A program made the position numbers and the translations under genes. The notes below the pieces were generated by a model. It saw only the letters and a list, made by a program, of their open reading frames with translations, ran no database searches and had not been told where the DNA came from. Below, piece after piece: positions 8,658-52,396 of a DNA stretch of 64,000 nt. Position 1 is the stretch's first letter; the number at the start of each line of letters is the position of its first letter. This stretch comes from Bacilli bacterium (GTDB lineage: Bacteria; Bacillota_I; Bacilli_A; RFN20; CAG-826): the NCBI GenBank assembly GCA_017429285.1, contig JAFRPF010000016.1, forward strand, positions 124,001 through 188,000, read 5' to 3'.

Positions 8658-8679
8658 AATTATTTATAAAATAAATAAA

Positions 8680-8702
8680 AGTTGCTTCGGCAACTTTTTT
8701 TG
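8680..8702 (+). terminator. Terminator after deoB
   Basis: Perfect stem AAGTTGC/GCAACTT around a TTCG tetraloop, then a T-run. The T-run leads directly into the conserved GAACA block of the next gene's leader. Confidence 0.95.
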
Positions 8703-8743
8703 AACATTTCGGCTTTTTCACCCCCTATTTGTGATATAGGAGG
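8697..8743 (+). promoter_or_regulatory. Shared 42-bp upstream element, copy A (PemK-like gene)
   Basis: After the T-run comes GAACATTTCGG (from 8702), then CCCCCTAT, a 7-base spacer and ATAGGAGG (Shine-Dalgarno at 8738-8743). CCCCCTAT and ATAGGAGG can pair over eight positions with one mismatch, masking the whole Shine-Dalgarno sequence. It matches copy B (before the C39-peptidase gene) at 37 of 42 positions and copy C (before comEA) at 28 of 42, with no gaps. The deoB terminator sits just upstream, so any promoter must lie within this element. Confidence 0.75.
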
Positions 8744-8751
8744 ACTTTTAA

Positions 8752-9312
8752 ATGGAAAAGTTTAAAGCAGAAAGAAACTATAGCTACGATTATGGCAGTA
8801 AAGTAGCAATAAAGCAGTCAGGAATGAGAGAACAATTAGACTGGATAAAAAGGCAACTAGAATACGTTTCTTTTTCAGAACAGTATTATCTAAGATACGA
8901 TTTAAAGAAAGGCGAGATTTACGAATTTGATTGGGGGATTAATGTTAACGCTGAATTCTCGAATAGGCATTATGGAGTCGTTTTAGTGGATTCGGATATC
9001 TTTAATCCCTTAGTAACTGTCTGCCCATTAAAGACAAACCATGGATCATGTAACAAGAAAAGTGATGTTGATTTAGGAAATGTTGAATGTTTACGAACAA
9101 GCAGACATACAATAGCAGTCATCAATCAAATAAGAACCATAGACAAGTTAAGATTATACATGAAACGGGCTATTGGCTTAGCAGATTCAAACCCAATTTT
9201 TGAGAAAACTGAAAGTGAAAAACGAACGATAAATAGGTTAGAAGAAGATAAGCTAAATATGATCATTGATGCCTATAAAGACTATCTTTCTGGAAATTCC
9301 GGAAATGGATGA
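8752..9312 (+). CDS. Orphan MazF/PemK-like protein
   Basis: A 186-residue protein with a probable MazF/PemK (CcdB-fold) core from about residue 50: KKGEIYEFDWG, HYGVVLVDSDIFNPLVTVCPL, and SRHTIAVINQIRTIDKLRL with the conserved Ser/Thr and Arg region. A roughly 50-residue N-terminal extension and a C-terminal helical tail are added to this core. No antitoxin gene lies next to it on either side. It is the only gene between the deoB terminator and nadD, with its own unusual leader. RNase activity, if any, is inferred from the family only. It need not be a toxin. Confidence 0.72.
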   Translation: MEKFKAERNYSYDYGSKVAIKQSGMREQLDWIKRQLEYVSFSEQYYLRYDLKKGEIYEFDWGINVNAEFSNRHYGVVLVDSDIFNPLVTVCPLKTNHGSCNKKSDVDLGNVECLRTSRHTIAVINQIRTIDKLRLYMKRAIGLADSNPIFEKTESEKRTINRLEEDKLNMIIDAYKDYLSGNSGNG

Positions 9313-31722: not shown

Positions 31723-32925
31723 CTATTCATTTTCTTTTTGACGTCTCATCCTATTACCGAGTTTAACTTTAACTTTGTTAAATTCATCGATGTCTTCGTT
31801 CATGTTCACAATCGCATCCATCGCTTTATATAGACTTAGCGAAATACAGGAATAGAAAATGACATAAGGTGTTGATGAAATACCGCATAAATGCATCGTT
31901 AATAAGGCGGTAGCAATAATTAAACCAGCATAGATATAAGCGCTCGCTAAATTCATATAGCTATAATCGTAAGCTAATTTGTGTAAATTATGTGCCTCTT
32001 CTTTAAAAGAAGATACGTCGTTAACACTATCTAAAGAATTCTCTTTGGCTTCAATTTGTGTTTTCTTGTTCTTTAAGAATGGATTAATGACAAATAAATC
32101 GAATAGAACTAAGAGTAATGGAACAACCACTAGTAAAGCATTTCTTCGATCATTTAATAGTATTAAGACCACTAAGCTAATCGCCGTTAAAATCAATAAG
32201 ACATAATGAAGTGGGCTAGATAATGATAATTTCTTAAATTGTTCAAACCTAAATAGATAATCTTTTAAATGATCATTAGGCACTAATTCTTCTTTGAAGA
32301 AATAATCATCTAGTTTCTTCATCATGTTATAGCTTATCGCTCTTAAGAGTAATTCACACAAAATCGCCCCTGCTAAGAATATGAAAGGAATATAAATCGG
32401 TGTGCCGTCTTTTACAAAATAAACCGCTAGTAAAACTAAGCCCACTATTAAGGCTTCCATAAACCCTAATAGGATACGACTGGTTAAAGATAATGGATTA
32501 AAACTCTGATAAGGACATTTCCTCTCATTGAAATCATCAATCATTAGTCCAGTTCCATCCCATATAGAAATAAATTTCTTTAACGGCATAGATGTCTTTC
32601 CTTTATTAGGATCGAGGTAAAAGATACGATTAAACTTCACTCCTGTCACAAGAACTGCGTGTTTAGCGTCATTTTCAAGGCTTAAGGAAAGAATTAAAGG
32701 AAAGGACGTTTCTTTACCTAGCTCATCTTTTTCCTCCGCTTTAAAGCCTTTTAAACTAAGCCCATATTCATAAGCGATTTCTGTTAAGTCAGTAAATGAA
32801 TATAGACCATGATTTTCGTCCTGCGGTATGAACAAGTAATTCTTATCCTTGTTTAGATTAGCGAGCATCATCTTTAAACAAGCGAATCCGCAGTCATCTT
32901 TTTGAATCTGTGGGATATAAAACAT
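31723..32925 (-). CDS. C39 peptidase-domain membrane protein without an ABC ATPase
   Basis: A 400-residue protein. Residues 1-140 form a C39 (bacteriocin-processing, double-glycine leader) peptidase domain with a complete triad: Cys12 in QKDDCGFACL, His89 in KHAVLVTG and Asp105 in YLDPNKGK. About six membrane helices follow (near 155-205, 250-305 and 335-385). This equals the front half of a peptidase-containing ABC transporter; there is no Walker motif and the protein stops before any nucleotide-binding domain. No GG-leader substrate was recognised nearby. I start at ATG 32925, behind AGGAGG in the shared leader; a longer frame from 33075 overlaps dnaJ and its terminator. Confidence 0.83.
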   Translation of the reverse strand: MFYIPQIQKDDCGFACLKMMLANLNKDKNYLFIPQDENHGLYSFTDLTEIAYEYGLSLKGFKAEEKDELGKETSFPLILSLSLENDAKHAVLVTGVKFNRIFYLDPNKGKTSMPLKKFISIWDGTGLMIDDFNERKCPYQSFNPLSLTSRILLGFMEALIVGLVLLAVYFVKDGTPIYIPFIFLAGAILCELLLRAISYNMMKKLDDYFFKEELVPNDHLKDYLFRFEQFKKLSLSSPLHYVLLILTAISLVVLILLNDRRNALLVVVPLLLVLFDLFVINPFLKNKKTQIEAKENSLDSVNDVSSFKEEAHNLHKLAYDYSYMNLASAYIYAGLIIATALLTMHLCGISSTPYVIFYSCISLSLYKAMDAIVNMNEDIDEFNKVKVKLGNRMRRQKENE

Positions 32926-32932
32926 AAAATCT

Positions 32933-32979
32933 CCTCCTATATCACAAATAGGTAGGGGAAAAGCCAAAATGTTCAAAAA
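32933..32979 (-). promoter_or_regulatory. Shared 42-bp upstream element, copy B (C39-peptidase gene)
   Basis: On the minus strand a T-run leads into GAACATTTTGG (from 32974), then CCTAT, a 7-base spacer and ATAGGAGG (Shine-Dalgarno at 32938-32933). 37 of 42 positions match copy A with no gap. The dnaJ terminator lies just upstream, so transcription of the C39 gene must begin within about 70 bases that consist mainly of this element. Confidence 0.78.
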
Positions 32980-32989
32980 AATTTTTGCA

Positions 32990-33015
32990 AAAAGAAAGAG
33001 ACTCATTTGAGTCTC
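32990..33015 (-). terminator. Terminator of the hrcA-grpE-dnaK-dnaJ operon
   Basis: On the minus strand a perfect 7-bp stem GAGACTC/GAGTCTC with an AAAT loop, then TTTCTTTTT. The stem overlaps the dnaJ TGA stop. Confidence 0.92.
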
Positions 33016-34147
33016 ATTTTTTAAACATCTTTTTAAACTTGGCGAACAAGCCTTCATCTTTTCCGCGTGTATCACGGAGTTTTTCTAATAGTTCTTTCTG
33101 GCCTTTACTTAAGGAAGTTGGCACTTTGATGTTGAGTTTAATATATTGATCACCAGGTTTTCCACTTCTTAAATCTTTAACGCCACAACCCTTCATTCTT
33201 AAGATTTGTCCAGGCTGGCTTCCAGAAGGAATAGTTAAGGTCATATCTCCATAGACAGTCGGAACATCGACTTTAGTTCCTAAACAAGCATCGACAAAGT
33301 CGAGGGGGATTTCTAAAGAGATATCATTACCGTCCCTTAAGAAATATTCATGTGGTTTGACTAAGATTTCAAAATATAAGTCACCGTTTGGTCCACCATT
33401 AACGCCTCTTTCCCCGTTACCACGAGAAACGATTTGTTGCCCATGGTTTATACCAGCCGGGATATGAACTTTGATGTTCTTTTTCTTATGGATATATCCT
33501 TTGCCTAAGCAATCAGGACATTTATTCTTAATCGTTTTTCCTTTACCGCCACAGGATGGACATATTTCTTGGCTAGCAATTGAGCCAAAAAGACTTTGTC
33601 TTTTTACACTTACATAGCCCTTACCACCACACTGGCTACAAGTCGAGATATCGCTCGCCGATTTAGCGCCGCTACCATGGCAAGTAGGACATTGTTCATC
33701 CACTTCAATTGGGACTTCAATATCTTTACCATTAATCGCATCCATAAAGTCGATACGGATACGTTTGATTTCATCGTTACCACGACGTGGTTGATTAGGA
33801 TTAGCTCTTGCTTGACCTCTTCCACCGGTGAAGAAAGAATTGATAATATCGCCTAAATCGCCAAAGCCACCGAAACCACTAAAGCCACCTTGGAAGGGGT
33901 TAGCACCAGGATTTCCGCCAGCTTGTTCGAAGGCTGCATGACCAAATTGGTCATAAGCACTTCTTTTTTGATCATCATAAAGAATATCGTATGCTTCTTG
34001 GATCTCTTTGAACTTGGCTTCATTACCCGTTTCTTTATTATCTGGGTGATATTTTTTGGCTAATTTACGATAAGCGCTTTTAATCTCATCTTTACTGGCA
34101 CTTTTATTAACACCAAGTATCTCATAGTAATCTCTTTTTTCTGCCAT
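33014..34147 (-). CDS. dnaJ: Chaperone DnaJ
   Basis: Hsp40 co-chaperone that stimulates the DnaK ATPase. J domain (residues 1-70) with the HPD motif in KKYHPDNKETGN, a Gly/Phe-rich region, four CxxCxGxG zinc repeats (CPTCHGSGAKS, CSQCGGKGYV, CPSCGGKGKT, CPDCLGKGYI) and the C-terminal substrate domains. I start at ATG 34147 (MAEKRDYYEIL). Length 377. Confidence 0.96.
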   Translation of the reverse strand: MAEKRDYYEILGVNKSASKDEIKSAYRKLAKKYHPDNKETGNEAKFKEIQEAYDILYDDQKRSAYDQFGHAAFEQAGGNPGANPFQGGFSGFGGFGDLGDIINSFFTGGRGQARANPNQPRRGNDEIKRIRIDFMDAINGKDIEVPIEVDEQCPTCHGSGAKSASDISTCSQCGGKGYVSVKRQSLFGSIASQEICPSCGGKGKTIKNKCPDCLGKGYIHKKKNIKVHIPAGINHGQQIVSRGNGERGVNGGPNGDLYFEILVKPHEYFLRDGNDISLEIPLDFVDACLGTKVDVPTVYGDMTLTIPSGSQPGQILRMKGCGVKDLRSGKPGDQYIKLNIKVPTSLSKGQKELLEKLRDTRGKDEGLFAKFKKMFKK

Positions 34148-49786: not shown

Positions 49787-51802
49787 CTACATAAAAATGT
49801 AGTTACGATAGGTAATTGTTCCTTCTATATCTGTTCGTCTTATTTTGACGTTATTATCCTCTAATATTTTCAAAACGCTTTTCTTGGGATGACCATATTT
49901 ATTGTTTTTGCCACATGAGATAATTCCCACTTTCGGTTTTAAGAATTTGATAAATTCATCGCACGTTGAAGTCTCTGATCCATGGTGTCCCACTTTTAAG
50001 ATGTCACAATCGATATGTTCATATTCATTAATGATATTTCTTTCCACTTCTTTCGGTGCGTCTCCAGTTATCAAAAAACTCTTATTCATGAGTGTAAAAC
50101 CGATGACTAAAGAATTGTCGTTTTTCTCAGAATATTCGCCGATATGGTTGTTATAATTACTAAAAGTAATTCCATTGATATTTATCGGAAAATCCGTCGC
50201 TTCTTTAACTACATCTTTTACATAATAATTGTTTTTTAAAGAATCTAATGCTCCGACATGATCATAATCATCATGTGTGGTGATAACTAAATCGATATCA
50301 TAGATGCCTTGTTTTTCTAAAAATGGGATTAAGACATTTTTCCCTATATCAACATTTTTTAATCCACCAGTATCGATTAAAACCGCGGTATTCCCCTTTC
50401 TAATTAAACAAGAATCACCTTGACCGACATTAATAAAGGAAACCTGCATCGAAGTGGGCATATATAAAGGAATTAATCTAAATAATAGATAAATGATTTC
50501 TATTAGCCCGTTTAATCGATAAATAGGAATAAAATCAATGCTTCTAAAGTAACAATATGATAATAGTAATAAGATATAACCTAGTAGATACCATTCATTG
50601 AATGGTGGCCCATTAATTTGTATCGATATCTTCGATAACCATCCTAATAGATTTGACACTCCCGTTAATAAGAATGAAACCACTCCATAAATAGGAACAC
50701 CATAGAAACATAATAACGACATTGTCGCTAAAGCAATAAATAATGGGGATAGAAGCGTTTGTAAAACTATCGATAAAGGATTTATGCCGTTGTAAAACTT
50801 AAATTCAAAAGGAATGAATGCAGCATAGATATAAAATAGCTCCACTACCTTCTTTTTAAATCTCTTATACATAAAGGTCATATCTCTAATTAAAGAGATG
50901 ATTATTGGCATGCTCATGCCTAAGATAAAACTCATCTGATAAGCATTATGAAAATCAAATAATAAGAGGATAAATCCATTTATTGATAATAGCTCTAATG
51001 ATTTTATCTTTTTATTAAAGAATATTTCATTAATATATCTTAATAGCTCCATGATCATAATTCTTAAAACGGTAAGTCTAGGAAATGTAAAAATGAAATA
51101 AGGAACTAAAGTAATTAAAGAAACGATTTTAATCCTTTTATCTTTGATAAAATATGAAAGAATGAACGTGAAAAACCTTAAATAAGCATAGATATAAATA
51201 CCAGAGGCATTCACTAGTCTAGATAGATGAAGTTTATCGATATTATTTAAATCCTGATTATCTTCGTGTTCAGAGAATAACATAGATTTAATAAGCGCTC
51301 TTTTTTGTTCATCAAAGTGGTTTAAAAACTTATTTCGTGTTTTTCTGATTTTAATGGGGTTAGTAAACTTAGCCTCTATACCCTTAACATCTATCGAATA
51401 ATATATCCCCTTTTTATTAAGATGATCCTTGAAATCAAATTGACTTTCAAGAACCACAAAATCTAGCTCTTCTTTCTTGCCTTTAACATATAGATAATCT
51501 CCTATTTCATATTCATTATCTTTGTTATAGGCATATAGTTTCTCTCCTTTTGAAAGCAAGATGAAATAATTATCTTTAGAATCGATAACAATGCCTATAA
51601 AGTTTTCCTTTTGTATATCTATTCTTATATAGCTAATTCCAACGCCGATAAAAGTGATTCCTAAACACAATAAGCAAAGCTTACTTTTGTATCTTCTAAA
51701 GACTAAAATTGCTAAAAGAATAACAACTACAGTAAATAATAAAACTGCATAACGAAAGGATAAACCAATCCAAAAGAAGAGAAAGAATAAAAGAAGTATC
51801 AC
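49787..51802 (-). CDS. comEC: DNA-uptake channel ComEC
   Basis: Membrane channel that takes single-stranded DNA across the membrane during competence. Residues about 1-65 are membrane helices, then an OB-like soluble part; about 185-440 is the multi-helix Competence domain. The C-terminal metallo-beta-lactamase domain has VSFINVGQGDSCLIRK, VITTHDDYDHVGAL and VGHHGSETSTCDEF, the motifs of a presumed nuclease for the non-transported strand. 671 residues. It overlaps comEA by 4 nt. Confidence 0.93.
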   Translation of the reverse strand: MILLLFFLFFWIGLSFRYAVLLFTVVVILLAILVFRRYKSKLCLLCLGITFIGVGISYIRIDIQKENFIGIVIDSKDNYFILLSKGEKLYAYNKDNEYEIGDYLYVKGKKEELDFVVLESQFDFKDHLNKKGIYYSIDVKGIEAKFTNPIKIRKTRNKFLNHFDEQKRALIKSMLFSEHEDNQDLNNIDKLHLSRLVNASGIYIYAYLRFFTFILSYFIKDKRIKIVSLITLVPYFIFTFPRLTVLRIMIMELLRYINEIFFNKKIKSLELLSINGFILLLFDFHNAYQMSFILGMSMPIIISLIRDMTFMYKRFKKKVVELFYIYAAFIPFEFKFYNGINPLSIVLQTLLSPLFIALATMSLLCFYGVPIYGVVSFLLTGVSNLLGWLSKISIQINGPPFNEWYLLGYILLLLSYCYFRSIDFIPIYRLNGLIEIIYLLFRLIPLYMPTSMQVSFINVGQGDSCLIRKGNTAVLIDTGGLKNVDIGKNVLIPFLEKQGIYDIDLVITTHDDYDHVGALDSLKNNYYVKDVVKEATDFPININGITFSNYNNHIGEYSEKNDNSLVIGFTLMNKSFLITGDAPKEVERNIINEYEHIDCDILKVGHHGSETSTCDEFIKFLKPKVGIISCGKNNKYGHPKKSVLKILEDNNVKIRRTDIEGTITYRNYIFM

Positions 51803-52341: not shown

Positions 52342-52349
52342 ATAAAAAC

Positions 52350-52396
52350 CCTCCTATATATTAACTAGGGAGGGTATTTACCAATTTGTTCAAAAT
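52350..52396 (-). promoter_or_regulatory. Shared 42-bp upstream element, copy C (comEA)
   Basis: On the minus strand TTTTGAACAAATTGG (GAAC from 52391), then CCCTCCCTA, a short spacer and TAGGAGGG, which contains the Shine-Dalgarno sequence (52355-52350). All spacings equal those in copies A and B. Its arms pair well and are followed by TTTTT, so in this copy the hairpin also resembles a weak terminator. It fills nearly the whole 60 bases between greA and comEA. Confidence 0.72.

Follow-up and report, generated by a model that had tools for sequence, protein, structure and literature searches.

Putative sigma-H-type competence promoters nested in Shine-Dalgarno-hiding hairpins in an uncultured gut bacterium of the Bacilli

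The window analysed here, a stretch of 64,000 nucleotides (C42:124001-188000), comes from the genome of an uncultured gut bacterium (G000, 1.26 Mb, 44 contigs). A PemK/MazF-like gene, a C39-peptidase-like gene and comEA in this window are each preceded by a copy of the same element, named here copies A (+ 8702-8743), B (- 32974-32933) and C (- 52391-52350), and the features are collected in Table 1. The initial annotation had reported these copies at just these sites with identical spacing, and hand counting reproduced its identities of 37/42 between A and B and 28/42 between A and C. The terminators that it had described before A (AAGTTGC-TTCG-GCAACTT-T7) and B (GAGACTC-AAAT-GAGTCTC-T-rich) are present. 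It had also stated that a good sigma-70 -10 box is missing, and none of the three elements gave a sigma-70-like promoter on the right strand. The T-run of the gpmI terminator runs into the box of copy A, and each of the three copies follows a gene on its own strand; the hairpin of copy C looks as if it doubles as the terminator of the upstream gene. Because the comEC-like gene overlaps the end of comEA, it is probably under the same element. No Rfam match at gathering score was obtained anywhere in the window, and a known structured RNA family was rejected on this basis.

Table 1. Features of the three element copies in the window and the start region of the candidate sigma factor gene (SD, Shine-Dalgarno sequence)
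Feature	Position	Strand	Remark
Terminator of upstream phosphoglycerate-mutase-like gene (gpmI)	8677..8699	+	Sequence; same stem scored on - strand
Copy A, upstream box TTTTTTGAACA, proposed -35	8696..8706	+	Immediately after gpmI terminator
Copy A, hairpin	8722..8743	+	CCTA 8724-8727 in 5' arm (putative -10); putative start in loop; SD AGGAGG 8738-8743 in 3' arm
PemK/MazF-like gene, 186 aa	8752..9312	+	Pfam PF02452, 31.5 bits
C39-peptidase-like membrane protein, 400 aa	31723..32925	-	ATG at 32925; Pfam PF03412, E 4.8e-18
Copy B, hairpin	32933..32957	-	CCTA 32952-32949, SD AGGAGG 32938-32933
Copy B, upstream box TTTTTTGAACA, proposed -35	32970..32980	-	
Terminator of upstream dnaJ-like gene	32998..33015	-	
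comEC-like gene	49787..51802	-	Overlaps comEA end; Pfam Lactamase_B, DUF4131
comEA, 180 aa, SLBB + helix-hairpin-helix	51799..52341	-	Pfam HHH_3 E 2.3e-18, SLBB
Copy C, hairpin ACCCTCCCTA..TAGGAGGGT then TTTTT	52343..52375	-	CCTA 52369-52366, SD AGGAGG 52355-52350
Copy C, upstream box TTTTGAACA, proposed -35	52387..52395	-	Right after greA-like stop codon
sigma-H-like gene, start region	G000:C21 ~33660-33730 (L098, - strand); also L193, L194, L195		

It was found that the pattern GAACA-N4-GG-N11-CCTA-N6-ATATAGGAGG, with up to three mismatches allowed, matched exactly three sites in the window and none in 100 dinucleotide shuffles. In the whole genome the same pattern gave 10 copies, and the pattern TTTTGAACA-N{15,20}-CCTA gave 11 matches, every one with N17, the reversed control giving 0. 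By the shuffles and the reversed control, a chance origin of the element was rejected. Further copies were observed before dprA (C4:3605), at C21:147108 and, in a diverged form, before a pilus operon on C16; at least 13 copies are thereby present in the 1.26-Mb genome, many more than the three first noticed. Two details of the earlier description had to be corrected: GAACA and CCTA are separated by 17 nt and not 18, and the GG at positions 10-11, which had been counted as a conserved part, is missing from other copies and hence lies outside the core.

Five ORF units of ~22 hydrophobic aa were found in G000, three on C1 and one each at C9:2365 and C21:65398. They are near-identical and have long flanks in common, which, together with the terminator-like character of several element copies, would suit a repeated terminator or mobile hairpin that landed by chance before genes and supplied their SD. 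Such an origin is regarded as highly improbable, since the other copies vary outside the core and are found, with differing sequences, before competence genes that are orthologous across several species, and one copy (C1:3862-3903) sits between divergent genes. The latter is therefore not the terminator of an upstream gene, and for it the element as a mere terminator of that kind was rejected. The small-ORF units themselves (~250 nt; also L158 in G005 and L175 in G004) comprise a structured leader, a GTTACGTATAGG..CCTATACGTAAC inverted repeat and an ORF such as MEIIIVFMTLLLLMLIEVKKDRK, whose SD region is able to pair with upstream sequence, and they look like a type I toxin or regulatory peptide. 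The distance between AGGAGG and the ORF in these units does not fit an SD; the hairpin is nonetheless retained.

The initial annotation had suggested a search for the motif at other competence genes, and it was indeed found at dprA, at radC with a pilin-like peptide and at a Tad-like pilus operon, in G000 and in related species. The G000 targets with competence functions are comEA-comEC, dprA (PF02481, E 8e-68), radC (UPF0758_N, E 4e-24) with the 61-aa pilin-like peptide preceding it, and the Tad-like pilus operon, the box being degenerate in the dprA and pilus copies. Other targets are the C39-like gene, the PemK-like gene, an ABC transporter (C35) and a ~98-aa protein (C21:147108). The element is also present at the orthologous comEA-comEC, dprA, pilin-radC and TadA/VirB11-like pilus operon of as many as five other species; the late competence genes have one putative promoter motif in common. 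That the element serves a competence regulon is well supported, and the element itself is real, specific and conserved as an architecture.

The Tad-like operon (L120:7313-11950, on C16 of G000) has a first gene of ~107 aa and a gene for a TadA/VirB11-like ATPase, and it is a possible DNA-uptake pilus. No ComGA-type ATPase was found in G000, and a ComGA-type pilus was rejected because the pilus ATPase fits TadA/VirB11 far better than ComGA. Ahead of radC lies a strongly conserved membrane peptide of 58-61 aa (..VMAIAAIAVMAVVVYRLFMSGKG..IPGG[WF]KF.W; L009:1550-1732, + strand; also L141, L145, L162 and L176-L191), which is possibly the pilin of this Tad-like pilus. Its G000 copy gave no Pfam match and two copies gave no NCBIfam match; the named relatives with the peptide are rumen and gut Bacilli/Erysipelotrichaceae MAGs. 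Uncharacterised basic proteins of ~98-101 aa were repeatedly observed under the element in three species (L161:1663-1956, - strand; L160; L130; the C21:147108 region of G000), the G003 copy in L161 having no family match. In G002 and G005 (L149, L157) the element precedes a gene for a thioredoxin-like lipoprotein, which is followed by a UvrD/PcrA-like helicase gene. A literature search yielded no paper that treats natural competence in Firmicutes together with a Tad pilus and a sigma factor, and nothing on this system for competence in RF39, Erysipelotrichia or rumen bacteria.

Five species of the same genus (G001-G005) were used for comparison. In a search of 58 genomes, the exact motif was absent from these five and had no convincing copy in the 52 others, which suggested at first a repeat confined to the source species. 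This view was reversed once orthologous leaders had been aligned: the leaders of G001, G002, G003 and G005 have the same architecture, each species with its own box. The boxes are TTTTTGAACA (core GAACA) in G000, GTGACAAA in G001, TTTTTGGTAAA (core GGTAAA) in G002, TTTTGTAAM (core GTAAM) in G003 and TTTTGCAAM (core GCAAM) in G005, and each recurs across about 5-9 genes. The offset from box to CCTA is constant within about 1 nt in the five species, and in all five the box is the furthest-upstream conserved block; no second box was found above it, the information per column falling above the box in each species. Similar hairpin leaders were found at comEA and C39 in G004, too few being collected there for a box consensus. 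Loops are common within a species, with two or three loop classes per species. A core-only pattern was enriched in the genus (11, 8, 7, 10, 2 and 9 matches per genome versus 0-2 for the control), and a loose hairpin pattern applied to 114 relatives was noisy outside the genus.

CCTA and TAGGAGG form the upper arms of a dyad, and the SD lies in its 3' arm. The lower stem varies by gene yet pairs (ATGCC/GGCAT, AACCC/GGGTT, ACCCTCC/GGAGGGT, GTACC/GGTAC). When the 5' flanks of 36 leaders were exchanged, folding became weaker, its mean energy rising from -11.75 to -9.43 ± 0.32 kcal/mol, and 0 of 10,000 permutations reached the observed value; exchange within species gave 0/10,000, and exchange within a gene across species 1/10,000. 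The outer stem covaries gene by gene, i.e. the dyad is an RNA hairpin. This variation of the outer stem from gene to gene, with its pairing kept, makes it unlikely that the element is a DNA operator bound by a dimer. Of the 55 window genes, only comEA and C39 have an SD so strongly paired in a fold of -8 kcal/mol or below, and an SD with a T-rich spacer as a trait of all genes was rejected on this ground. Folding predicted that the probability of AGGAGG being unpaired is 0.05-0.17 in readthrough RNA versus 0.38-0.67 in RNA starting in the loop. As in leaders of the T4 gene e/sigG type, the SD was found within the 3' arm of a hairpin that is stable by folding and conserved by covariation.

One gene besides that for RpoD was found above the sigma-70 region 2 cut-off in G000. 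This gene follows cysS-rlmB, the sigH position as in Bacillus, and a small sigma gene is there in nearly all relatives examined. The profile of this sigma-H-like factor matches the PDB sigma-H 3mzy (E 3e-29), TIGR02859 (spore_sigH) matches 15/25 family members, and the predicted fold (mean pLDDT 86.6) has B. subtilis RPSH as its best match. Within the genus its identity is 16-39%, versus 66-83% for RlmB and 58-78% for the next gene (EcfA-like). Fast divergence of sigH is known from Lactobacillus and Staphylococcus, with sigma-H as the competence activator (PMC3364868). We infer that the sigma-H-like factor reads the element, the two being linked by family, synteny and parallel divergence. Other ECF sigmas are present in some relatives, e.g. 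G005 and G001. The leader of the sigma-H-like gene in G000, G001, G003 and G004 was observed to hold an SD hairpin followed by T-runs and no box. The N-terminus of the protein (I..Q[YF]P.DE.LL) is conserved and begins upstream of any ATG/GTG/TTG, and in these four species the start codon seems to be AUU or AUC, 8-10 nt past the SD. In S. aureus, an inverted repeat in the sigH leader hides its own RBS, a post-transcriptional control, and the start codon is TTG (PMC3486894).

The box, the near-fixed spacing, the covarying hairpin, the common gene set and the divergent sigma, all read from sequence, make a nested-hairpin promoter mechanism likely. The upstream box (TTTTTGAACA in G000) would be the -35 element and CCTA, 17 nt past it, the core of the -10 element, with transcription starting in the dyad loop a few bases before the SD. 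The near-fixed spacing between box and CCTA is compatible with such an overlap of promoter and 5' arm. The dyad, with its C-rich 5' arm containing CCTA, its 3' arm TAGGAGG containing the SD and the T-run behind it, would affect only RNA reading in from upstream: readthrough RNA would fold the dyad, with the SD hidden and a terminator-like hairpin in many copies, and the genes would be off, while RNA from the own promoter would be without the 5' arm and have its SD exposed. Since readthrough RNA would hide the SD, stray transcripts of neighbour genes probably cannot make proteins; for copies A and B, which other terminators already precede, such insulation seems less necessary. The sigma-H-like factor and the promoters would change together, and their fast joint evolution may be the reason why box and loop are common within a species and different between species. 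On balance we favour sigma-H-type competence promoters nested in an SD-hiding hairpin and read by the factor beside rlmB as the probable explanation, the start site, the sigma dependence and the on/off effect being those that the sequence suggests. The alternative-sigma promoter of a competence regulon put forward in the initial annotation, with GAACA as -35 and CCTA as -10, is supported by the further competence genes that carry the element and by a candidate sigma-H/ComX-family factor in sigH synteny; what that annotation had overlooked are the hairpin CCTA..TAGGAGG with the SD in it, the species-specific box and the carriers outside competence.

The main rival is an RNA-level switch, in which the box would act as a -10-like element or belong to the leader, transcription would begin at the box or directly behind it, the hairpin would be in every transcript, and a loop-reading factor in trans (protein, sRNA, temperature) would open it on competence induction. 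The covarying hairpin and the loops common within species agree with a switch of this kind. GAACA also resembles part of the ComX box TACGAATA. The RBS-hiding, post-transcriptional inverted repeat of S. aureus sigH counts for it as well (PMC3486894). However, the box stands at near-constant distance to CCTA as the topmost conserved block, which leaves no -35; an RNA with its 5' end just past the box would keep the SD buried, at an unpaired probability of 0.05-0.17, and the window is without an Rfam match. Weakened by the near-fixed spacing and the lack of a -35 above the box, the switch is considered unlikely. Some points count against the sigma-H promoter itself. The Bacillus sigma-H -10 consensus contains GAAT, and CCTA is not a known sigma-H -10; the consensus sequences of the five species were found to have no conserved block of GAAT/CGAATA type. 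The invariance of CCTA could alternatively come from pairing with TAGG, and two or three loop classes per species are not explained by a single -10 readout. The degenerate boxes at dprA and the pilus operon and the displaced AGGAGG of the small-ORF units speak against the model as well.

It is also conceivable that a housekeeping sigma-A promoter is used with a competence activator, the box being the activator site overlapping the -35, and that the activator diverges and not sigma-H. The box does occupy the position of a class II activator and TTGNNA is like a weak -35, but the -10 position (CCTATT/CCTAGT) is without the key A of TATAAT, no sigma-70 promoter was found there on the right strand, and the analysis revealed no activator candidate but did reveal a sigma whose family and divergence fit; we regard this arrangement as improbable, more so than the RNA switch. 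The ECF promoter consensus is TGNAAC-N16/17-CGWC. TGTAAC in G003 and TGCAAC in G005, followed by 17 nt and a four-base -10-like core, are similar to it. However, CCTA stands in all species in place of CGTC/CGTA and the boxes of G000, G001 and G002 deviate from TGNAAC, so that the pattern TGNAAC-N16/17-CGTC/CGTA was not found and the likeness is confined to the -35 of G003 and G005.

The sigma-H-type promoters proposed here share with the sigma-H/ComX competence regulons of the non-sporulating Firmicutes L. sakei, S. aureus and streptococci a small divergent sigma-H-family factor, the cysS-rlmB-sigH synteny and the link to comEA, dprA and an uptake pilus (PMC3364868, PMC3486894). They differ in that the box and CCTA are not a -10 of GAAT/CGAATA type, the pilus is Tad-like and not ComG, an SD-hiding hairpin is found in each target promoter, and the boxes vary among species of one genus. 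In the leaders of phage T4 gene e, soc, 49 and I-TevI, the 5' arm of a hairpin that hides the RBS contains a late-sigma promoter, with readthrough RNA silent and own-promoter RNA translated (PMC3014915); those belong to a phage with one regulator and a handful of targets, unlike the present chromosomal competence regulon diversified across species. A large hairpin in the B. subtilis sigG leader has been proposed to block readthrough translation and cannot form in PsigG RNA (PMC5942855), but this concerns one gene, whose sigma and sequence are different. The int promoter of an S. aureus prophage has a conserved 40-bp region that ends at the AGGAGG SD, is without sigma-A/sigma-B signals and can be transcribed in vitro by sigma-H (PMC2869324), although the inverted repeats described there exclude the SD and the sequence is unrelated.

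A wider proposal, to which we give even weight for and against, is that the promoters of an entire competence regulon in uncultured gut Bacilli lie within SD-hiding, terminator-like hairpins, and that translatable RNA would come only from initiation by a dedicated sigma; that sigma-H and its promoters co-diverge so fast that sister species would have different, perhaps mutually unreadable, codes; and that an SD hairpin, together with initiation at AUU/AUC, would restrain the sigma itself. For an uncultured gut lineage, the result is a regulatory code of DNA uptake that can be tested. It provides a parts list of the regulon including unannotated proteins (the pilin-like peptide, the ~98-aa protein and the ~22-aa ORF units). 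The sigma-promoter pairs of this one genus also make up a natural divergence series, which is relevant to the question why sigma-H/ComX evolves so fast. The nested hairpin, if true, would extend a single-gene trick, as in T4 e and sigG, to the insulation of a whole regulon, as a principle for compact genomes.
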